The notes beneath the pieces are model-generated. The model was not told the DNA's origin, searched no databases, and saw only the letters and a list, made by a program, of their open reading frames with translations. A program made the translations under genes and the position numbers. From assembly GCA_963555705.1 (NCBI GenBank), contig OY743184.1, positions 28,288,639 through 28,352,638 of the forward strand: 64,000 bases of DNA, given 5' to 3'. This DNA comes from Ligustrum vulgare (taxonomy: Eukaryota > Streptophyta > Magnoliopsida > Lamiales > Oleaceae). Numbering within the stretch: position 1 is the stretch's first letter; every line of letters begins with the position of its first letter. This document shows positions 38,151 to 64,000 of this stretch, in pieces.

Positions 38151-38171
38151 ATAATTGCCCTCTATATTTCA

Positions 38172-38729
38172 ATTGACACATCGGATGCAAGTCACATGCT
38201 TTTTGATGAGTGTGAAGCAAACGATTGGGATGAGGACATCCCTCTTGTGGGAGATGGTCCTCCACTATGGAGTGAAAGGGTAATTTCAAAATACTATGAA
38301 AAGCTAGCCAAGTTAGATGAAGGTGATATGGTGCTAGGAGACTCCATTTATTGGAGTGAATTTAAAAGGTGGGGATATAATCCACTCGAGAAAGTTCCTA
38401 AGAAAGACTTACTATTGCCATTGGAGTTTGAGGAAGTATCAATCATTCAACCCAAGGACGAATCGAATATTGAAGAAATAATTGAAGAAAATGAAATACC
38501 AATCACAATGGAACCTAACAAATACGTGGCCATCATTGAGGAAAAAATCAATCTTCATTGTTTTGACTTTGATGATTGCCAAGAAATTGCTTTTGTGATT
38601 AAACCTGATGAGGAGGTGGAAATCTTCGTAGTTGAATTTGAATTGGATGAAAGGTACAGGTTCTATAATATAGAGAGGGGCAATTTTGAGTCTTGGAGAT
38701 TAAATGAAGAGTGGAACAAAGCCAAATGA
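38172..38729 (+). pseudogene. Acidic ORF of unknown function in element B (5'-truncated)
   Basis: The open frame runs upstream of the ATG at 38196 and is homologous to the ORF of element D on the other strand (60103-60937). Shared blocks: DTSDASHM / DTFDASYM; 'DWDEDIPLVGDGPP'; KYYEKLAKLDEGDM; FEEVSIIQ; a 'VVEFELDE' core; and the C-terminal EEWNKAK. About 180 codons remain, and the N-terminal ~95 codons present in D are missing. The protein is strongly acidic with a basic tail. It resembles neither gag, protease, RT nor integrase. It is followed closely by the TTGGG..CCCAA hairpin. Function unknown; it may be a structural or regulatory protein of a non-autonomous element. Confidence 0.75.
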
Positions 38730-38820
38730 AAAAAGATGGACAAGGCATCCAAAGCTTTCTTTAGGTGCCCGTGAATCAATTGGCAAAAAGTCTAGCTCTA
38801 GATTGTAAATGAAGTGCTTG

Positions 38821-38836
38821 TTGGGAGGCAACCCAA
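38821..38836 (+). other. Conserved hairpin TTGGG-AGGCAA-CCCAA, element B
   Basis: A 5-bp stem with a 6-nt loop starts 92 nt after the ORF stop. The same hairpin occurs behind the coding region of C (49612-49627) and D (60041-60056). The stem is identical in all three and the loop varies (AGGCAA, AGGAAA, AGACAA). Confidence 0.85.
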
Positions 38837-38846
38837 TTTCACAAAC

Positions 38847-46512: not shown

Positions 46513-47216
46513 ATGGCCTTAAACACAAACTCCACAGCTGCCTCACTCATTTCTCAAATCCCTCTCTCCATCTCACTATCGTAACCACCTTTCCTTCACC
46601 TCCCATTGTTATCAATGGCCAATCACATCTCCCCATCGAACTCACTTCTTTAAACTTTCCCGCATGGTACGATTTCATAGCCTCTTGGCAGTATATGATA
46701 TGATTGGATTGAATTGGTTGATGGAACCTTACCTTGCCCCTCTCCTATGATACCAAATCTAACCACACCGATTACTTCGATTCCAAATCCTAAATTCACT
46801 AAATGGTTTCGGCAAGATAAACTTTTGCTAAATGCCATCATTAGCTCTCTATCTCCAAATCTCATCTCTTTTATTGTTGCTGCAAAAACCTTTAAACCAG
46901 CCTAGGACAACATAACAACCACTTATGCGAAACCGTCACGGGGATGCATCATGAACCTAAAGAGCAGTTTAGGCTAACTACAAAAAGGGGACTCCACAAT
47001 CACGGAGTATATGAACAACGTCAAAAGCATTGTAGATAACTTAACCTTGATGAATTTTGCACCTGATAGTAATGAAATCGTCCTTTACATTCTACGAGGA
47101 ATAGGCCCTGAATACAATAGATTTTGAGGGGCTATTTGCACTCATGAATCAGCAAAATATCATTTGGAAAACTTCACGAAAAACTAGTCACAAGAGAATC
47201 TCTATTAAGAAGATCT
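46513..47216 (+). pseudogene. Ty1/copia gag (5' part), element L
   Basis: Starting at ATG 46513, broken frames give a typical copia gag. It has a Ser/Pro N-terminus, 'INGQSHLPIELTSLNFPAWY' (46610-46670), 'PNPKFTKWFRQDKLLLNAII' (46785-46845), 'LQKGDSTITEYMNNVKSIVD' (46976-47036), APDSNEIVLYILRGIGPEY, and HEKLVTRESLLRR just before the break at 47216. Stops and frameshifts are numerous. Gag resumes in the same frame at 58259 after the first large insertion. Confidence 0.85.
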
Positions 47217-48680
47217 AAATTTCGTGAATTGCTTCCTTTTGACACAGAAATCAAAAGAAACTTTCGAGAAAGGCATAGACAACAATTGGAAGCAGCTCAA
47301 CAAACAGATTTAGCCATGACAGACAATAGAATTCAGAACAATCAGGAAAATCAGAATGCCAGAAGTTGTCATTGAACAGCAATCAAATCATGGGAGGCAT
47401 GCTTTGAGAGAATACATGGTTCCTCCTGTAGGGAACATTGGGACCTGTGTAGTATTGCCAGCAATACTGGCCAATAATTATGAGATCAATACTTCCTTGT
47501 TTTCATTGATCCAAAACTCAGCTGTGTTTCATGGATTGCCATTTGAAGATCCACATACACATCTTCAAAATTTTTAATGTGAGATACGCAGCTCATAATA
47601 GATTTCTAGATGATGCCATGAAGTTGAAACTATTCTCATTCTCATTGGCAGACAAAGCTAATACATGGTTCTACTAATTGTCTCTCCATACAATCAATAC
47701 TTGGGAAATCTTAAGCCAAAACTTTATTGATAAATTCTTCTCACCTGGTCGAATATTAAAGCCCAGGCCTGAAATCCTATCTTTCTGTCAACAACTAGGG
47801 GAGTCTATTTTTGAAGCTTGGGAAAGGTTTAATGGGCTTATAAGATAGTGTCCTACTCATGGAATAACTGACTGGATTTTGGTGCAAACGTTATATAATG
47901 GTTTGACAAATGAAAACAAGAAGCATGCAGATTCAGCAGCTTGGGTATTCGGTTATGGACATGACTTATGAAGATGCTTCTGAAATATTTGAGAAAATGG
48001 CTTCCAATAGTTACTAGTGGTATTCAGATCGATCTACAACAAAATCTAGGGGAATTGTTGTAGTTAATTAAATTACAGCATTGAATGTAAAGTTGGATGC
48101 TTTGACTAAGAAGTTTGATAGTTTGAGTTTGCAATCAGTTCATGCAGTGTAGACAGCCCTTTGTGATTTCTAATTTGAACATCATGTTGCAAATAATTGG
48201 CCCATGGCTCATCAAAATCAAGCAAGTCTAGAGAAAGCAAATTTTTTGGGACACAGGCAACAGTGTGGTCCTTATTCAGAGACTTATAATCCAGAATGGA
48301 AGAACCACCCAAATTTATCGTGGTCCAACAATCAAAATGTTCAGTGCCTACCAAGTTTCCAACAGCAACATCAAGCTCAGACTACCATGAAGAAAAACCT
48401 GGACATGTTAATTCAGCTGGTAAAAAGTCAACAAGATGCATTACCAGAGTCAACAAGCAAAAATTAAGAATTTGAATAATCAAATGGAGCAATTAGAAGC
48501 AAGTAGAGCACAAAGGCAACCTAGAAAGTTACCAAGCAACACTGAAACTAACCCTCATGAGCATGTGAATGAAATAACAACTAGAAGTGGGGTTCAATTA
48601 CCAGAAATCACTGTTGAAGAGTATGAAGAGAAAATGAGGCAGAATGTGGTGAAAGAACATAAAAGTGAGAAAGACTAGGG
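47217..48680 (+). pseudogene. Tat/Athila-like gag, element C
   Basis: Starts at a sharp junction with copia gag ('ELLPFDTEIKRNFRERHRQQ', the N-terminal gag segment of this group). Continues with 'LREYMVPPVGNIGTCVVLPA' (47410-47470), the retrotransposon gag core (ANTWFY..ILSQNFIDKFF; LGESIFEAWERFNGL; TLYNGLTNE, 47650-47910), and the group hallmark VNEITTRSGVQLPE (48568-48610). Several stops and frameshifts (e.g. 47576, 47676, 48466). There is no zinc knuckle. The 5' LTR and leader are missing. Confidence 0.82.
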
Positions 48681-49520
48681 GTCTACTACAGAAATTTAAG
48701 AAAAGGGTGAAGAATCAGTTCGAGTTCGACCTCTAGAAAAAGCATATGTTCCACCAATCCCATATCCTCAAAGGGTGGGAAGGCACAAGTTGGAGCAGTA
48801 ATTTATGAAGTTTTTGGAGATTTTCAAACAACCACACATCAACATCCCATTTATTGAAGCATTAGCTCAAATGCCTCTCTACATGAATTTTGTGAAGGAG
48901 ATACTGTCAAACAAAAGAAAGCTGATAGATTTTGAAACAGTAGCACTGAGTGAGGAGTGCAGCACCATTCTTCAAAACAAGTTACCATAAAAACTAAAAG
49001 ATCCAGTGAGTTTTTCTATCCCTTTTACAATTGGTAATTCCAGTTTTGATAATGTTTTGTGTCATTTAGGGGCCAGTGTTAATTTAATGCCTCTTTCTGT
49101 ATACAAAAAACTTTGTTTGGGGGAGCCTAAACGAACAAATATCTCATTTAAGCTAGCCAACAGATCAATTCAAGAATTCTTCTTTCCAGTTGATTTTGTG
49201 ATCCATGACATGGAAGAGGACCATCATATGCCCCTCATATTTGGAAGAGCATTCCTTGCTACTGGATATGCCCTAATAGATATTAAAGAAGGGAAATCAT
49301 CTTCAGGGTGGAAAATGAGCAAGTTACTTTCAGCATTACTCCACATTGTGATCCTAAAGTTCAAGTTGAAAGTTACTGTAAAGTGGAAGTTGTAGTGCAA
49401 AAAGGTGGATGGAGGGACAAAAATGAGGAAAAGCCTAACATCCTTCAACAAAAAACTGATACGGAGGCCTTGAAATTAAAAAAAAGTGAGAAAAAGGGTA
49501 AAAAAATGCAAGGTTGGTAA
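48681..49520 (+). pseudogene. Tat/Athila-like aspartic protease, element C
   Basis: Frames carry the segment upstream of the protease (PYPQRVGRHKLEQ; 'KFLEIFKQPHINIPFIEALA'; MPLYMNFVKEILSNKRKL), then the protease: FTIGNSSFDNVLCHLGASVN with LMPLSVYKKL, and 'MPLIFGRAFLATGYALIDIK'. The catalytic Asp of the CDLGAS motif is replaced by His (CHLGAS), so the enzyme would be dead even without the breaks. A frameshift at about 49300 moves the C-terminus (ENEQVTFSITPHCD..) to another frame. Nothing of RT, RNase H or integrase follows; the hairpin comes 91 nt later. Confidence 0.85.
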
Positions 49521-51131: not shown

Positions 51132-51934
51132 TGATGTGATAAAAAGTAGGCATCGAAAGGAGAAGTTGAGCTATCTGCAATACGACAGTGATCTACGTGA
51201 GAAACAGTGCAAATTCGGTATTGGGGTCGAGCCTAGAAGATGAAGGAATCGAGCATAATCAAATGATCGAAGTTTGAAATCCAGAATCCTATTCACGACC
51301 GTAACTCCTTCTCAGGTGGAATTGAAGAAATCCAGCAATTTAATATTTAAGGCGTGAGAGTGCTCGTTACGGCCGTAACACATTAACAGGGAGTCACTTA
51401 CGGCCGTAAGTGACATTGTTACGTTACGGTCGTAACTTCAATTTTTCGAATTTTTCACAAATTTTGATTATTTTTCCTTTTTAATTAATTATTTCCTTAT
51501 TTTGAACCCTAATTATGGCTAGGGCTAGCTTTAAGGTTTTTTTACTATATTATGTTATGTTTTTCATCATGAACAATTAGACAACATTGATTATTGAATA
51601 GATTGAGAGTTTTTCTCTTTGAAAAGGTTGAGGATTCTCTTTTGTGTTCTTCAAGAAAAAGAATCTGTACTTATCAAATATTGTGAAATATTTGTGGAGT
51701 TCCAATCAGAAACTTATCAAGAAAATTGACAAGTCCTTGTGGTGTTTCAAAGACCTGGGTTCTTTAATCCGCATCATTGAATCTTCGCATCTTGATCGTT
51801 GGGTCAAGGTCTTATCGCCAATTTTATTTTTCCAGTCATTTTGTTTCTTGTGTTTGTTGCTGAATTTAAATCTTTCCTATCGTTTGTGTCTTAATTTCGA
51901 GTTCTTCATCGCGTTTCTAAGTGGGATCACGTCA
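51132..51934 (+). repeat. 5' LTR of internally deleted gypsy element E
   Basis: The LTR starts TGATGTGATAAAAAGTAGGC and ends GTGGGATCACGTCA. The first and last 10 bp are near-complements. The 3' LTR (54553-55370) matches it throughout with scattered substitutions and small indels. Contains TTACGGCCGTAA words including an exact 22-bp palindrome centred on CGGCCG at 51393-51414. Preceded by the target duplication ATGTT (51127-51131). Confidence 0.93.
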
Positions 51935-51936
51935 TT

Positions 51937-51949
51937 TGGTATCAGAGTT
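51937..51949 (+). other. Primer binding site of element E
   Basis: TGGTATCAGAGTT, 2 nt after the LTR end; identical to the site in element A. Confidence 0.88.
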
Positions 51950-52348
51950 TTGATCTAAATTTAGTTCTTATATTCTGATGACTTTCTTAAGTTTCTTATT
52001 CTTCGTGTTTTTCATTGTTTTCTTAGTCTGATCCATACAAAAATCCAACAAAAACTCATTCTTGTTTATTTTAGTGAATTCTTATATAATTCAATTATGT
52101 TTGCTTCACTGCAATCGTGGTTGAGTTTTCGAGTAAAAATGTGTGTGTATATATATATGTATATATATACTCCGAAAATTCGATATTTTTCCCAAATATT
52201 CCGAATTTTCTCAATTCTCAAATTTTCTTATTCTTATTCGTGTCATATCTTTCCCTACCCTTAATTGAGTTCTTGGAGTTCTTGAAAGGGGATTTTTGAG
52301 TGATACATTTTTTGAGGAAATTATTAATTATTTCTTTGAGAACTAACA

Positions 52349-53737
52349 ATGTCTAGCAGGCGGGATTCATCTTCTTCATCGGTTGGTGACAACAAGGGCA
52401 TTGGTAGAAGGGAGCCAGCAACTTCATCAATGAGCCACAACAAGCGACTTGAAGGTATCAATAGGGTGAAAAGGAATGATGTAGGTGTGATGGAAACTTT
52501 GCATGAACATTTTGAGAAGTTGATGACTAGAATGGATAGGCAGGAAGAAACTATTAATCGGTTGCGTAGGGATCAAACTCATATGGGTCCTAGAGCTAGG
52601 AGGGGAAATAATCATAGGGTTGGATATGGGTTTGATGAAGAGAGGGATGATAGTGGATGGGGAAGTGTGCATTCTTCAATGGCTAGTGTGGGAAGAAGGA
52701 GTGAAAGGGGTGATAGGCGTGAAAGAGGTCATAGAAGGAGGCATGAAAATAGATATGAAATGGATGGTAACCTCGGAAATATTAAAATGACCATACCACC
52801 TTTTAGTGGGAGGAGTGACCCGTAGGCTTATTTAGATTGGGAGAAGAAAGTGGAGTTGATGTTCGAGTGTCATAACTATTCAAAGGAAAAGAAGGTTAAG
52901 CTTGTCGTAGTTAAGTTCGCTAACTACGCCATAAACTGGTGGGACCAATTGGTGAAGGATTGAAGGAGAAATGGTGAGAGGCCAGTAGATAGATGGTGTG
53001 AGATGAAAACCATAATGAGAAAGAGGTTTGTCCCAAGCCACTACCATAGGGATATTTACCAAATGTTGCAAGGTCTTACGCAAGGTTTTAGGAGTGTGGA
53101 GGAGTATCATAAAGACATGGAGGTAGCCATGATTAGGGCCAATGTGGTGGAGGATCGGGAAGCAACAATGGCTAGATTATTGGGTGGGTTGAACAAAGAT
53201 ATTGCCAACATCATTGAGTTACAACATTATGTGGAACTAGAAGACACGGTGCATATGGCAATGAAAGTGGAGAGGCAAATAAATCGAAAGGGGACAACAA
53301 AGCATTCACCTGGATCATATCCTACTTCTCGTCAACAAAGGGATCCTATTGACAAACATGTTTTGAAGGGAAAGGAGGAACCTACAACTAAAGGTAAAAA
53401 CATTTCTGATTCCCAACCTACTAAGGATATGAATATTAAATGTTTTAAATGCTTGGGTTCGGGTCATATTGCATCCCAGTGTCCAAATAAAAGAGTAATG
53501 TTTTTGCGAGATAATGGGTAAATTAGTTTGAAAGATGAGTTTAAAGGGATGCCTAGATTACAGAATATTGAGGATAGTAGTAGCGATGATGAAGGGCTAA
53601 CTTATGCGGTTAAAGGATCACTTGTTAATAGGCATGTCCTAGGTTCTAGAGTTAAGGTGGCTGAAAAGTGGATGAACAAAGGGATAACATTTTCCACACT
53701 CGGTGTTTGGTGGGAAAAAAGGTTTGCAAGATGGTGA
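52349..53737 (+). pseudogene. gag of element E
   Basis: A single frame from ATG 52349, interrupted by three in-frame stops (at about 52823, 52961 and 53519), where A has sense codons. Domains as in A: polar N-terminus, basic RRSERGDRRERGHRRR block, gag core ('WEKKVELMFECHNYSKEKKV'), second core block ('SVEEYHKDMEVAMIRANVVE', 53096-53155) and an intact zinc knuckle CFKCLGSGHIASQC (53443-53484). The frame is lost at about 53700, where the protease begins in another frame. Clearly a relative of element A in the opposite orientation. Confidence 0.9.
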
Positions 53738-54340
53738 TTGATGGGGGAAGTTGTACTAATGTTGTTAGTACAATATTGGTGGAATTGTTGGGATTGCCTA
53801 AGTTGAAGTATCCTTATCCCTATAAATTGCAATGGTTAACCGAGTCGGGGGAACTTAAAATGAACAGGCAGGTCAATAACAAATTTACCATTGGGGGTTA
53901 TAAAGATGAGGTTGTGTGTGATGTGGTGCCTATGCACGTGGGGCATATTTTCTTGGGAAGGCCTTGGTAACATGACAGGAGGTTGGTGCATGATGGTTTT
54001 AAGAACCGATATTCGTTTGTGAAGGGTGGAAAGAAGATCGCTCTCGTTCCTTTATCTCCTAAAGAGGTCCGAGAAGATCAATTGAAAATAAAATGTGAAT
54101 TTTAGGGGAAAAATAAGAGTGTTGAGGCCACGACCTCAGAAAAAGGAGAGGGTGTGAAAATTGAAAACAAGAGAGTTGAGGCCACGACCTCATAAAAAAG
54201 AGAGCTTGAGAGCAAAAAGAAAAGAGAGTCCACCCCCAAATTCAGTTTTTTTGCACAACGGTTGATGTACAAGGATTCATGCCTTGCACTTAACCAATCT
54301 AACAAATCCCTCCCTAGTTCTACTAAATTTGTCTTGCATA
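53668..54340 (+). pseudogene. Protease and linker of element E
   Basis: The frame shows 'NIFHTRCLVGKKVCKMVIDG', then [17 protein letters not shown] (the same DGGS active site as in A) and CDVVPMHVGHIFLGRPW, followed by a stop. After that comes a linker with repeated KRVEATTSEKGE-like units and 'MYKDSCLAL', which in A lies about 40 codons before RT. Sequence then jumps to a pol-tail-like frame, so RT, RNase H and most of integrase are deleted between about 54340 and 54390. Confidence 0.82.
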
Positions 54341-54389
54341 CCTAAATCAAACTCCAAAACTAAAGTTGGGACTAAATGTAATACCATGG

Positions 54390-54552
54390 AGAATCAGCCC
54401 CGAAAGTCCAAGGATTGCATGAAGTACAAGCATGAACATCAATCCCGCAGAAGCAAGTATAGGCATGAACCAAGAGCCAACATACCCCGGAGTTGCAAGA
54501 GGATTGAGCGAGTTGCAGATTCGAGGTTGAATCCTTTTCAGGAGAGGGGGGA
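54390..54552 (+). pseudogene. pol C-terminal tail and PPT of element E
   Basis: A highly basic frame (ENQPRKSKDCMKYKHEHQ.. and 'RVADSRLNPFQERGDD') resembles the extreme C-terminus of gypsy polyproteins (…D.R.NPFQE..D). It runs straight into the purine tract AGGAGAGGGGGGA (54540-54552), which touches the 3' LTR. The ORF continues into the LTR by chance only. Confidence 0.65.
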
Positions 54553-55370
54553 TGATGTGATCCAAAGTAGGCGTCGAAAGGAGAAGTCAAGCTATCGGCA
54601 ATACGACAGTGATCTACGTAAGAAACAAAGCAAATTCCATGTTGGGATCGAGCCGAGAAGATCAAGGGATCTAGCCGAATCAAAGGATTGGGGTTTGAAA
54701 TCAAGAAGCCTATTCACAGTCGTAAACTTAGTTGGTTACGACCATAACTCCTTCTTGGGTGGAATTGAAGAAATCTAGCAATTTGATACTTACGGCTGTG
54801 AGAGTGCTCGTTACGTCCGTAACTCATTAACAGGGAGTCACTTACGGCCGTAAGTGATATTGTTACGATCGTAACTTCAATTTTTTAGATTTTCACGAAT
54901 TTTGATTATTTTTCTTTTTTAATTAATTATTTCCTTATTTTGAACCCTAATTGCGGCTAGGGCTAGGTTTAAGGTGTTTTTAACTATATTATGTTATGTT
55001 TTTCATCATGAACAATTAGACAACTTTGATTATTGAATAGATTGAGAGTTTTTCTCTTTGAAAAGGTTGAGAATTTTCTTTTGTGTTCTTCAAGAAAAAA
55101 TCTGAACTTATCAAATATTGTGATATATTTGTGGTGTCCCAATCAGAAACTTATCAAGGAAATTGACAAGTCATTGTAGAGTTTCGAAAACCTCGGTTCT
55201 TCAACCTGCAACGTTGAATCTTTCCATCGTGATCGTTCGGTCAAGGTTTATCATCAATTTTATTTTTCCAATCATTTTGTTTCTTGTGTTTGTTGCTGAA
55301 TTTAGATCTTTCCTATCATTTGTGTCTTAATTCCATGTTTTTCGTCGCGTTTCCGAGTGGGATCGCGTCA
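54553..55370 (+). repeat. 3' LTR of element E
   Basis: Starts TGATGTGATCCAAAGTAGGC and ends GTGGGATCGCGTCA, followed by the target duplication ATGTT (55371-55375). It differs from the 5' LTR at many positions (for example GGCGTCGAAAGG versus GGCATCGAAAGG), so the insertion is not recent. Confidence 0.93.
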
Positions 55371-58258: not shown

Positions 58259-58503
58259 ATCTCAGTTGCAACCCGTGAGACCTCCTGATTCTTTTACTCA
58301 TGTCATAGCCATCTTTACCTCAAAATCCAAAACCTGTCACCCTAACTCATCTCACACACAAAATACTAATTAAAAAACCAACACCCAAAGAAACAACAAG
58401 CAATATTGTTGCTCTGCCAATTCTTCCAACAACTATAATCCACGCCCCTACAAGGGAAATTGCAAGTTGTGTAGTCCATAAGGTCATTCAGCAAAAAGAT
58501 GTA
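58259..58503 (+). pseudogene. Ty1/copia gag middle part with zinc knuckle, element L
   Basis: The frame is the one left at 47216. It encodes a Thr/Asn-rich linker (NTNxKTNTQRNNKQY, one stop) and a zinc knuckle read as CKLCSPxGHSAKRC, with a TAA inside the knuckle at about 58480. Interrupted after KRC by element D; the sequence resumes at 62590. Confidence 0.75.
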
Positions 58504-59763
58504 TGTTCACAAAAATTGTGTACCGCAAGCGCACAAATCGCGTTCAAGTAATAAAGTGGACTTATGAGTCCGGGTTGTCGATCTCTCGAGGAATGTATAC
58601 TCAATTGCACACTCTAGTTAATTTAATTTTTTAACAACAGAGTCACACAATAAGTTTTTGGATTTTTTTAGTGAAAATAAAACATAAACACTCTAACTTT
58701 AAATTCTAACAATAACGAAAATGGAATATTAAAAAGTTGGGATTCATGATTTCACTTAAACAACACTAAAAAAAAAAAAAAAAAGATTAACTACTTAAGA
58801 TAGATAAATGCAAGACAATAAACATAAATCAAAGTACACAACATTAAAAGACAATAATCATAATGTAAATGCTTGAAAGTAAATAACTCAAAATAAATAA
58901 ACAAACTTAAAATAACTTAGTGAAGTTAAGTAACAACAATCATCACAACAAAATACTATTTAGCCCAAAATAAAAATTAACTCATTACAAAATCACAATA
59001 TTTAACCACTAACATAATCGTTTCAACAACAAGCTAAACAAAGTGTTCAAGACAATAAAAGAAAACTCTCATTCTAGTTAAACTCTTGAATTTGAAATTC
59101 CAAGTTTTCTTCACTTTAAATCAAGATTTTTTTTTTTCATTATCTATTAATTTCATGAACAACCCAACACAAAGCTTTAATTAAACCATAAATAACATGA
59201 AAGTTTGAGGAGAAAAGTTAGAGAAAACAACAATAATGAAAATTTCAACAACATTAAGCTTTAATTTGAAGGAAAGCAAGTAAAAATACAAAAACTTAAA
59301 AGATTTAATGCATTAATTAGGAAAAACTTGAGAGAAAATATAAGAAAAATGGAAAAGAGACATAAAACTTACATACCCTAGTTGAATGAGGATTTTGGGT
59401 ATTTATATCATCTCAAAAATCAACCAAAAACTCTAAAAAACGCTAATAGATAAGCAATTTATAAAAATAGGAACAAGTAACATATTCGATCATAATTCGT
59501 GAATTAATCAATAATTAGTTATGACTATTGTGCTCAAGTGAACTTAGGATCACTCATAGATAAGCAATTTATAAAAATAGGCACAAGTAGCATATTCAAT
59601 CATAATTCGTGAATTAATCAACAATTTCAAACATCAAATCATTTTGAGCCGACAAGGCTATCTAGCATGTCAATATCCAAAACAAAATGAATAAAATCAA
59701 ACATCACAACATCTTAAGCCGGCAAGGCTATCTAACATGATAAAGTGTAAAATGAAATCAACA
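58504..59763 (-). repeat. 3' LTR of element D
   Basis: In minus orientation it starts TGTTGATTTCATTTTACAC next to the PPT and ends ..CTTGCGGTACACAATTTTTGTGAACA at 58504. The U5-proximal ~930 bp match the 5' LTR (61070-62010) closely, including the TATA-like GATATAAATACCC (59400-59412) and the ..CCCGGACTCATAAGTCC.. U5 signature. The U3 part is unrelated to the 5' LTR and instead has two ~110-bp tandem copies around ATAAGCAATTTATAAAAATA (59448-59640). Confidence 0.75.
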
Positions 59764-59774
59764 CCCCCAAACTT
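59764..59774 (-). other. Polypurine tract of element D
   Basis: AAGTTTGGGGG on the minus strand, abutting the LTR start TGTTGATTTC. The upstream GAAGACAATG phrase matches the pre-PPT motif of B and C. A second PPT-like CAAGTTTGGGGGGTG lies at about 59903-59918. Confidence 0.75.
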
Positions 59775-60040
59775 GAATTACACATTGTCTTCAATGTGAA
59801 AATAGAAACAAAGTGTAAAGAAGAAATGAGTTAGTAAAACTTCCCTGATTTGATGCTTGTTTGTGATGTTTGAAATTGACCTAAGCTTTCGCCGAATGTA
59901 GTTCACCCCCCAAACTTGTTGAGAACAATAACGCTTAGGATTTTCAAAAATATTTGTTACCTACAAAAGTTTGACAAATAATTAAAAAGAAAGTAAAGAA
60001 GTAATGTAAATAATCACAAGTAAAGTAAAATAGAAGAAAT

Positions 60041-60056
60041 TTGGGTTGTCTCCCAA
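60041..60056 (-). other. Conserved hairpin TTGGG-AGACAA-CCCAA, element D
   Basis: Stem extended to 6 bp (TTTGGG/CCCAAA), loop AGACAA. It begins 46 nt after the stop of the D ORF in minus sense. Third member of the set in B, C and D. Confidence 0.85.
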
Positions 60057-60102
60057 AAAGCGCTTGGTTAAAGTCATAAGCTTGACTTTTTGCATAAGTA
60101 CT

Positions 60103-60937
60103 TCATGGCACTTTAACTGAAGCTTTTGATGTTTTGCCCATTTTTCTTCTTTTGGCTTTGTTCCACTCTTCATTGATTCTCCAAACTTGTACCTTGTTCC
60201 TTCCAATGTCATATGACATGCCTACTTCATCTTCATCCAATTCAAATTCAACTACGTAGACTTGCTCCTCCTCAAGTGGCTTAATCAAAAAATCAATTGT
60301 TGGGAAATCAATGAAGCTGAGAGAATGTAATTTAATCTCTTCCTCATTAACGGTCACTTCCCCTTGTGATTCTTCGGTGATTAACTTGTCATTCGTTTTG
60401 AGCTCATCTTCAATAGTTGATATCTCCTCGAATTGAATGGCCGATTCAAAATTTGAATCCATGGGCAATGACAAGTTTTTCCTTTTTATCCCCAAGAGTG
60501 GATCATACCCCCCACATTTTAAATCCTTCCCAAAATATGGTATCTCCCATAGGCATATCATCTTCATCCAACTTGGCAAGCTTATTGTAATATTTTGCAA
60601 GTACTTTTTCATTCAAAAATGGAGGACCCTCTCCTATAAGAGTAATATCCTCATCCTAATCTTCCGGTAGACAATCTCCCAAAGGCATGTAACTAGCATC
60701 GAATGTGTCAATTGCTTGTTTTCTGCAATTAAAATATTGTCTAAACACAAGAAGGTTTGACATAAACAAAGTATTGCCCGAATACAAACACTGTCCATTA
60801 TCATGCATCTTGTAACAAATTTCACAACTCGAATATTCTCCAAGTATATGTTCATTACCCATGCAGAGAATGTCCATTGGAAAAATCTTTCCTATTTCAT
60901 CAATGTTAGACTCATGCATACATAAAAGGAAAACCAA
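60103..60937 (-). pseudogene. Acidic ORF of unknown function in element D, in the gag position
   Basis: About 278 codons long, starting 110-130 nt after the primer site, where gag normally begins. It is split by a stop at 60656-60658 (TAG where B has a Trp codon) and by one extra base in a C6 run (60508-60513). The N-terminal part (60656-60937) contains CEICYKMHDNGQC, a C-x2-C-x3-H-x4-C cluster reminiscent of a shortened zinc knuckle. The C-terminal part aligns with the B ORF: 'DEDITLIGEGPP', KYYNKLAKLDEDDM, 'VVEFELDEDEV' and EEWNKAK, followed by a basic tail. The 169-residue frame starting at 60612 has an out-of-frame N-terminus of about 30 residues. It has no gag, protease or pol similarity. 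Function unknown. Confidence 0.75.
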
Positions 60938-61045
60938 AAATAAGAAAGATTAAAATTATAGTGGTTAACCAAAAGTAGCAAACTAAAACATAAATTAAAA
61001 TTGTTAAAACTAAACTTAACTAAAGTGGCAATCAAGTAAAAACAT

Positions 61046-61063
61046 TCCCTGGCAACGGTGCCA
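61046..61063 (-). other. Primer binding site of element D (tRNA-Asp type)
   Basis: The minus strand reads TGGCACCGTTGCCAGGGA, two changes from the TGGCGCCGTTGCCGGGGA site of Tat/Athila-type elements that is complementary to tRNA-Asp. It starts 6 nt after the LTR end (..GCGAACA at 61070). Confidence 0.82.
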
Positions 61064-61069
61064 AAAACT

Positions 61070-62589
61070 TGTTCGCTAAAATCCTGTACAGCAAGCGCAC
61101 GGGTCGCGTTCATGTAATAAAGTGAACTTTATGAGTCCGGGTTGTCGATCCTACAAGGAATGTATACTCAATTACACACTCTAGTTAATTTAATTTTTAA
61201 CAACGAAGTCACACAATAAGTTTTTGGATTTTTTTTTTTTTTTTTAGTGAAAATAAAACATAAACAAGCTAACTTTAAATTCTAACAACAATAAAGAAAA
61301 TGGAATATTAAAAAGTTAGGATTCATGATTTCACTTAAAAAACACTTTTTGAAAAAAAAAAAAAGATTAACTACTTAAGATAGATAAATGCAAGACAATA
61401 AACATAAATCAAAGTACAAAATATTAAAAGACAATAATCATAAATGCAAATGCTTGAAAGTAAATAAACAAACATAAAATATCTAAGTGAAGTAAAGTAA
61501 CACCAATCATCCTAACAAAATATTATATAGCCCATAATAAAAATTAACTCATAATAAAATCACAGCATTTAACCACTAACATAATCATTTCAACAACATG
61601 CTAAGCAAAGTGTTAAAACAAGATAATAAAACAAAACTCTCATTCTAGTTAAATCTTGAATTTGAAATTCCAAGTTTTCTTCACTTTAAATCAAGATTTT
61701 TTTTCCGTTATCTATTAATTTCATGAACAACCCAACACAAAGCTTCAATTAAACCATAAATAACATGAAAGTTTGAGGAGAAAAGTTAGAAAAAACAACA
61801 ATAATGAAAATTCCAACAACATTAAGCTTTAATTTGAAGGAAAGCAAGTAAAAACACAAAAACTTAAAAGATTTAATGCATTAATTAAGAAAAGCTTGAG
61901 AGAAAATACAAGAAAAAAAATGCAAAAGAGGCATAAAACTTACATACCCTAGTTGAATGAGGATTTTGGGTATTTATATCATCCCAAAAAAAACCAAAAA
62001 CCCTAAAGCCGCGTTGACCCGGTCCAGGCAGGATTTTTCTTTTTTATATATATATATATATATTTAAAGCCGCGTGATCTCGTGCCAATACCTCGAGCGA
62101 TCACGCGGTTCAAAAATCCGGCCAGTCGTTTTCTCGAATCCGTTCCATGGTTTGAGTCGCGTTTGCGACTTGGTTCGAGCCACGCGTTCGTGTGGCTCTG
62201 CTGGGATGGTTCTTTGTAGCTTAGTCCCTTTCGTAATTGCAATCTAGTCCTCCATCTTTCAATGTCGATCAATTTAGTCTCCAAACTTTCAGATTTCTTT
62301 CAAATAGGTCATTCTAAAATTGTACTTGAAGTCCTTCAACTTTTGAAATTTTACAATTTGGTCCCTGGGTTAAATTGCCTAGCAGGTCATCAACTTTTCG
62401 AAAGTGACACAATGGTCCCCAAACTTCCAATTTCAGCATAATTTGCACTCCTTTTGTGATTTTTGGCCTCAAACTTGGATATTAACCTATTTAAACACAA
62501 AATCTGCATATATTAGTAGATATTTGCTCAAGATATTCCAAAATATGCTAATATAAAGGTATATAAAGTGTATAAAAATGCACTTAACA
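61070..62589 (-). repeat. 5' LTR of element D
   Basis: Minus sense: TGTTAAGTGCATTTTTATAC.. at 62589 to ..TTTTAGCGAACA at 61070, about 1.52 kb. The U3 holds 'GGACCAAATTG'/'GGACTAGATTG' degenerate repeats (62216-62450), a CpG patch with GCGTGATC, GATCACGCGG and GTCGCAAACGCGACT (62065-62190), a (TA)n run (62045-62063) and a TATA-like GATATAAATACCC (61970-61985). Flanking bases ATGT occur on both sides of D (58499-58502 and 62590-62593), consistent with a 4-5 bp target duplication. Confidence 0.82.
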
Positions 62590-64000
62590 ATGTCCCACTT
62601 ATCGTGTCTCTTCTTGGTAGAACTCTCATCCTCTCAAAACCTCAACTTTTGGTCCTCTAGAACCAATCACATGGCCAATGTGGCCCAACCAATGGCCTCC
62701 AACTCATCCCCAGATGATTGGCTTCTTGAACATGGGGCTTCTCATCATATCACCAATGATATGCATAATCTCTCCTTACACTCCATCTACACTGGCAATG
62801 ATGACGTCATCATAGGCGATGACACAGGTCTTGAAATATAGCATACTGGAAAAGCTATACTTCGCACAACAAATTTTCGTTTCTCTCTAGACATCACTCT
62901 GTGCGTTCCTAGCATGAAAAGCAATCTTATTTCTATTTTTAATTTTTGCCATCAAAATTCTGTTTCCATTGAATTCTCACCAAGTTGTTTTGTTGTGAAA
63001 ATTTGCAGACAGGAGCACTACTATTAAAAGGATCAGCTAAAGATGGAGTATATGTGTTATCACCTTCCAAAGCCAAACCAATCTTTGCCTTTTCTACTAC
63101 ACACTCATCCTTATATTCATCGATCATTTTTCTAAATATATGTGGTTTTACCTATTAAAGAAAAAATCTCATGTTCGTGACATTTTTATTAAATACAAGG
63201 CACTTGTTGAAAATACACTTAAAAACCAAACTGACTACCCTATTTACCGAAAATGGAGAGAATATATTGCATTGTCAAACTTCCTTTCTCAAAATGGTAT
63301 AAATCACTTAAAAACTCCTCCTCATACACCCTAACAGAATGGCCTTTCTGAGCGACGATATCGACACCTAGTTGAAACTGGTTTAAGTCTTCTTCAACAA
63401 GCCTCAATTCCTACAAAATATTGGCCTCATGCTTTTGGTACAACTGTCATTTACCCAAAGTTAACCTGAAGTTTAGTTCCTCATTTTCCAAATTATTTAA
63501 AACTAAGCCAAATCTTTCAAAGTTACGTATTTTTGGTTGCTTGTGTTATCCTTGGTTATGTCCATATCATATTCACAAACTTGATCCTAAATTTGAACCT
63601 TGTGTTTTCTTTGATTATAGTACAATACAAAGTGCATATCTATGCTTTGATCGCACTACCAAGTGACTTTATGTTAGTCGTCATGTTCAATTTGTCAAGG
63701 AAATCTTTCCTTTTCAATAAACCCGAACTCACCCACACCAAACACGTCTACTACATGTTCGTCCACCTCGTCTTCTCCTTAAAGTGATATTCTTCCCACA
63801 CATCCGTCATTATCCCTTTTAAAAATCCAATCCCCAACTAATCCTAATCCTCACAACCATCAAGGTTATAACTCATGCAATCCGTTGCCTACTAGGACTC
63901 CAATAGTGGACTCCTTTGCATGTAACTCCAACAAGCCATTGGGTGGGACTCCAAACCAAGGTGATTACTCCTTATTATTTAATTCTTGTTCATCTTTATC
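62590..64000 (+). pseudogene. Ty1/copia protease and integrase, element L (continues beyond window)
   Basis: Broken frames continue copia L after element D. They include a protease start 'WLLEHGASHHITNDMHNLSL' (the DSG active site reads EHG, so the catalytic Asp is lost), IYTGNDDVIIGDDTGL, and a GAG-pre-integrase remnant (62880-63020). These are followed by integrase core pieces (VENTLKNQTDYPI; 'LSNFLSQNGINHLKTPPHTP'; NGLSERRYRHLVETGLSLLQQAS with the catalytic Glu) and the post-integrase block 'FKTKPNLSKLRIFGCLCYPW' / PCVFFDYSTIQSAYLCFDRTT (63500-63660). RT would lie beyond 64000. Same family as the minus-strand element K. Confidence 0.87.

Follow-up and report, generated by a model that had tools for sequence, protein, structure and literature searches.

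In the window, the 64,000-nucleotide stretch of Ligustrum vulgare DNA analysed here, we identified a compact LTR retrotransposon, element D, with a single ORF coding for a conserved protein with no Pfam match to gag or pol; we are highly confident that both the element and the protein family are real. The full reading that we tentatively favour, at a little short of an even chance, is that D is a compact nonautonomous Athila/Tat (OTA) LTR retrotransposon with a fast-evolving accessory protein as its sole gene. D occupies 58504-62589 on the minus strand and is nested in a Ty1/copia-like element; its features, in the direction of its transcription, are as follows.

62590..62594, no strand: right copy of the TSD, ATGTC, equal to the left copy at 4/5 positions
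61070..62589, minus strand: 5′ LTR, 1520 bp, TG...CA ends
61047..61063, minus strand: PBS, tRNA-Asp type, beginning 6 nt past the LTR end
60103..60919, minus strand: ORF, first ATG at 60919, with one stop and one frameshift
60788..60826, minus strand: Cys/His cluster, C-x2-C-x3-H-x4-C, near the N-terminus of the ORF product
60070..60089, minus strand: first 3′ hairpin, 7-bp stem, predicted fold
60041..60056, minus strand: second 3′ hairpin, TTGGG-AGACAA-CCCAA, predicted fold
59906..59918, minus strand: extra PPT-like tract, ~130 nt upstream of the PPT that abuts the 3′ LTR
59764..59775, minus strand: PPT, abutting the 3′ LTR
58504..59763, minus strand: 3′ LTR, 1260 bp, TG...CA ends, directly after the PPT
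58499..58503, no strand: left copy of the TSD, ATGTA

D has paired LTRs with TG...CA ends, a TSD, a PBS after the 5′ LTR, and a PPT before the 3′ LTR, and the LTR element proposed in the initial annotation is thus confirmed, with the LTR ends and the 4/5 TSD newly added. The LTRs are 89% identical between 61070-62007 and 58504-59437 (957 columns, 62 mismatches, 12 gap openings), and this identity is confined to the TATA-R-U5 part, setting in shortly before a TATA-like box. The U3 parts (62008-62589 and 59438-59763) do not align except for a weak 27-column match at their extreme ends (E 0.078), so the outer boundary of the 5′ LTR is set not by alignment but from its CA end, the TSD, and the host reading, the right end of D having been chosen partly by the TSD match. 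The unlike U3s could have arisen if plus-strand transfer involved a co-packaged relative whose U3 differed, or if one U3 was replaced later.

A copia-like reading is present on both flanks of D: on the left, a knuckle-like 'CKLCSP*GHSAKRC' ends there, and on the right, a reading starts that leads into a protease-like 'WLLEHGASHH', motifs that we take to belong to a Ty1/copia-like host. This decayed host spans 58300-58503 and 62590-63787, with an SH3_retrovirus Pfam match at 63376-63663 (2.2e-16). Elsewhere in the window, a further LTR element at 51132-55370 has an LTR pair of 86% identity and matches to Retrotrans_gag, zf-CCHC, and aspartyl protease, and decayed gag-protease remains that we presume to be Athila-like lie at 47148-49520 on the plus strand; six ORFs of this relic have no Pfam match at 0.01.

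The internal region of D (59764-61069, 1.3 kb) holds one ORF, two small predicted hairpins, and the PPT. Its PBS reads TGGCACCGTTGCCAGGG, and we assign it using what we take to be the tRNA-Asp letters; 61051-61063 on the minus strand matches TGGCGCCGTTGCC with one mismatch, and the window has no second match even with two mismatches allowed, a threshold at which 8/100 shuffles contain at least one match. Pfam gave no match above cut-off for any of five minus-strand ORF pieces scanned from the internal region, and Rfam gave none in 58400-62700. The tRNA-Asp-type primer site, the succession of hairpin, PPT, and LTR downstream of the ORF, and the lack of recognisable gag or pol, all claimed from a first inspection of the sequence, therefore hold, as does the C-x2-C-x3-H-x4-C cluster in the ORF.

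The ORF has 272 codons counted from 60919, or 258 from 60877, where its relative P0003 begins. It is interrupted by one in-frame stop (60656-60658) and, near 60510, by one frameshift, because of which it is read in two frames. A related copy, B, lies on the opposite strand of the window, with these features.

38170..38839, plus strand: copy B, a 5′-truncated ORF (38172-38726, early stop at 38727-38729) plus hairpin
38789-38804, plus strand: first hairpin of B, at the like place, predicted stem
38821-38836, plus strand: second hairpin of B, counterpart of 60041..60056 in D

B and D are 70% identical in DNA over 38170-38839 (477/685), the similarity beginning within the ORF and ending just past the second hairpin; their proteins are 58% identical over 67 aligned columns and 45% over 120, and the frame of B ends 15 residues short of the family's end. 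We found no direct repeat pair flanking B within 10 kb (blastn E up to 1e-8, >60 bp), and, as B is truncated within the ORF, no primer site and nothing of its former upstream sequence is visible. The initial annotation had placed this second copy in an element of its own; the homologous ORF and hairpin are indeed there, but as an ORF-plus-hairpin fragment without flanking repeats. B backs the ORF-hairpin arrangement, not a full element.

The hairpin motif of B, used as a pattern, matches D with two mismatches, against a mean of 0.00 matches in 100 shuffles. Folding predicts short stems in B and D alike, yet we rejected the hairpins as strong RNA structure, their folding energy being ordinary: 15/200 shuffles fold as well in D, and 103/200 in B. 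A covariation test would call for more than these two sequences. Just past the ORF, the stem bases of the first hairpin differ between D (60070-60089) and B (38789-38804), which would be a compensatory change if more copies confirm it.

The placement of the ORF bears on the main rival reading, to which we give roughly a one-in-three chance: D would derive by internal deletion from an autonomous Athila/Tat-type element, retaining an extra ORF, likeliest the 3′ sense env-like one beside the hairpin and PPT, or a 5′ one, so that the protein serves the helper and D is a passenger. The ORF begins 127-169 nt beyond the PBS with nothing recognised between, which speaks against a deletion and agrees positionally with the 'gag position' first ascribed to it; however, by coordinates, the distance from the family's stop to the second 3′ hairpin downstream is 46 nt in D and B alike, so the ORF could equally be a 3′ (env-like) extra ORF after loss of gag-pol. 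The truncation of B within the ORF leaves room for an upstream gag-pol in that copy. Plant LTR elements are known to carry extra ORFs of unknown function on either side of gag-pol (PMC7264820, PMC11963269, PMC11728184, PMC3485330, PMC6317226), most commonly between pol and the 3′ LTR (PMC7264820), and the deletion reading can draw on descriptions of both positions (PMC7264820, PMC11728184). In contrast, the protein of D has no match to the extra-ORF domains of Athila, Retand, and Ogre named in the cited parts of PMC6317226.

Protein searches found relatives well beyond the window. A search with B alone identified P0001 at 1.9e-57; a profile search with a 4-row alignment gave eight proteins, seven of them new (1.4e-83 to 4.9e-25), and one with an 11-row alignment gave 11 proteins, three new (4.0e-21 to 3.6e-15). 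With 11 relatives from outside the window, the homologous conserved protein recognised at the outset is well borne out, and the chance-ORF candidate is refuted. A chance open frame, which could appeal to the weak outcome of the spectrum-preserving null described below, is in our estimate next to impossible given that B alone finds P0001 with such strength. P0003 and P0004 have frames open across 256 aa and are ~50% identical to each other. None of the 11 relatives has a precomputed Pfam domain; the contigs that carry them, from sources labelled jgi or lgn, measure 0.9-1.8 kb at the longest, and with relatives known from such short contigs, the PBS-ORF-3′ hairpin arrangement is seen in D only. 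P0010 matches the family mainly in its C-terminal half; the N-terminal half is unlike it and has MLVCD and MLVGD motifs. With P0001 alone as query, which finds close relatives only, no relatives were found in viral contigs or in prokaryote genome contigs; the hairpin motif was absent from the viral contigs, and 19 stretches in the prokaryote contigs match its pattern. The occurrence of relatives elsewhere suggests a helper protein that such elements keep.

Searching 14 rows of the family against Pfam gave three families at E up to 1, sub-threshold DUF matches only; no gag, pol, or zf-CCHC family was among them, and neither were Athila ORF-1 (PF03078), Transposase_28 (PF04195), and the plant mobile domain (PF10536). 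Lacking such matches, gag, Pol, Athila ORF-1, Transposase_28, and plant mobile domain were rejected as identities, and the initial view of a non-gag/pol protein stands. There are no relatives of the family in PDB, and a description of it was not found in open-licence papers; judged by Pfam, PDB, and that literature, the family appears to be uncatalogued. A captured piece of a host gene, carried without function, is thinkable inasmuch as plant LTR elements are known to capture genes (PMC7264820), but eleven divergent relatives, the avoidance of stops (below), and the lack of a Pfam or PDB family match make it distinctly improbable.

The N-terminal cluster is reached by four rows (P0003, P0004, P0009, and D), with three cysteines in 4/4, the His in 3/4, and a further Cys in 3/4; P0003 and P0009 share the pattern of D, and in P0004, Q replaces H but a further Cys is present. 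At the other end, 6/8 relatives that reach the C-terminal region (P0001-P0005 and P0010) have a basic tail, with a net charge of +5 to +7 over the last 22 residues and of -21 to -32 in the acidic remainder. The tail is not kept in P0006 and P0008, which have different C-terminal ends. The stretch KAKRRKMGKASK resembles a nuclear signal or RNA-binding patch. AlphaFold models have a mean pLDDT of 33.9 (11 rows) and 36.8 (10 rows), a quality that does not permit a fold search, and being uninformative, they support neither a fold nor disorder.

The Cys/His cluster also invites a reading of the protein as a strongly diverged piece of gag, in which a nucleocapsid-type knuckle precedes a region that has drifted, and gag-only nonautonomous Athila elements under purifying selection are known (PMC2410132). 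The Athila-like relic reads C-D-F-stop-F-E-H-H-V-A-N-N-W at ~48.16 kb, a broken Cys/His pattern that in our reading would have the same spacing as D, given loss of its second and its last cysteine. We nonetheless consider a gag origin improbable: the 14 rows match no gag or zf-CCHC family at E up to 1, the cluster is near the N-terminus, the wrong end for gag, with no capsid before it, and a profile comparison of the family with one ORF of the relic was null (prob 0.4%). The gag knuckle of Diaspora is reported as C-x2-C-x4-H-x4-C (PMC1142308), compared with which the spacing in D is one residue short. The zf-CCHC zinc knuckle was rejected as the identity of the cluster on this spacing and the absence of a Pfam match.

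Selection on the protein is likely, judging mainly from its divergent open relatives, although a database of predicted proteins favours open frames, so these fall short of proof. The initial annotation had taken retention of the protein to imply selection and proposed computing dN/dS between copies. For the B-D pair, over 184 codons and with the single aligned codon containing the D stop dropped, dN is 0.36, dS 0.66, and dN/dS 0.55 (bootstrap 0.36-0.79; 2/2000 at ≥1). Differences at codon positions 1, 2, and 3 are nearly even (58, 48, and 67), and a null that preserves the spectrum, with the observed base changes in shuffled places, reaches an equally low pN/pS in 193/2000 sets; the B-D ratio, not beating this null, is weak on its own. 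Support for selection comes from the divergent open relatives and from stop avoidance: one aligned stop is observed between B and D, against a null mean of 7.6, with one or fewer in 8/2000. B and D agree at 59% of the 41 columns that are strongly conserved in the other members, versus 41% of the 95 others, a difference matched in 472/10000 permutations; 136 columns were kept, excluding those with fewer than four database rows and the D stretch from stop to frameshift.

A tree was built from 10/14 rows, leaving out P0007, P0009, P0011, and the N-terminal piece of D (60 residues or fewer in the region), and 2/7 inner branches are well supported. The end branches of B and D are long (0.58 and 0.43) compared with that of P0001 (0.035), so much of the change in B and D may be post-insertion decay; those of P0008 and P0010 are 0.64 and 1.13. 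B and D may belong to different subfamilies, as old copies that have decayed.

Among known systems, the nonautonomous Athila elements of Arabidopsis are similar to D in having LTRs and few ORFs and in missing pol; they are thought to move via the machinery of pol-bearing families, and their ORFs, gag or gag plus env, are under purifying selection, unlike D, which has no gag match (PMC2410132). Diaspora/Calypso resembles D in its tRNA-Asp PBS a few bp past the LTR (5 bp in Diaspora/Calypso) and in a PPT abutting the 3′ LTR, but Diaspora has a gag-pol ORF, with no other lengthy ORF reported in the cited parts of the source (PMC1142308). D has the tRNA-Asp-type PBS with a short spacer, an Athila/Tat trait, and no RT, and since non-chromoviruses use several primers, tRNA-Asp among them (PMC6317226), the PBS type is no more than suggestive of the Athila/Tat lineage. 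Athena of peanut is also nonautonomous, and its printed 618-bp piece contains TGGCGCCGTTGCCGGGG; it has no ORF described in the cited parts of the source and is likened to D by description, not sequence (PMC5904367).

Retrosat2 ORF0, the Tekay 5′aORF, Grande gene23, and Retand TRP28 are, like the D protein, extra and of unknown function; some are fast-evolving, and some have nuclear signals and predicted disorder, but they sit beside gag-pol, and some Retand clusters are without some domains (PMC3485330, PMC11728184, PMC7264820, PMC11963269, in the parts cited). The D protein differs from TRP28 in having no Transposase_28 match, and from ORF0, the Tekay ORF, and gene23 by description only. Because selected gag and env on nonautonomous Athila are published, a nonautonomous element with a gene under selection has precedent; the novelty appears to be the protein family and its place as sole gene.

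Nonautonomous LTR elements are usually viewed as empty or gag-carrying. Under the accessory-protein reading, D would depend on a partner's Gag-Pol to package its RNA, reverse transcribe it, and integrate the product, and the one gene of D would supply a fast-evolving accessory protein. That protein probably binds nucleic acid: its small N-terminal cluster of zinc type and its basic C-terminal tail, with an acidic middle between them, would serve in nucleic acid binding or nuclear entry. It would most likely act on the element's own RNA or its silencing, and not in the particle shell. That a lineage without gag or pol has long kept its own Rev-like or anti-silencing factor, aiding export, packaging, or an unmethylated state, is a more specific proposal that we consider rather unlikely; if true, a retrotransposon parasite would provide its own trans-acting function. 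If a conserved non-gag protein is the only gene of such elements, this would show that parasites of this sort contribute functions themselves, and the protein family would offer a tractable handle on the packaging, export, or silencing of plant retroelements.
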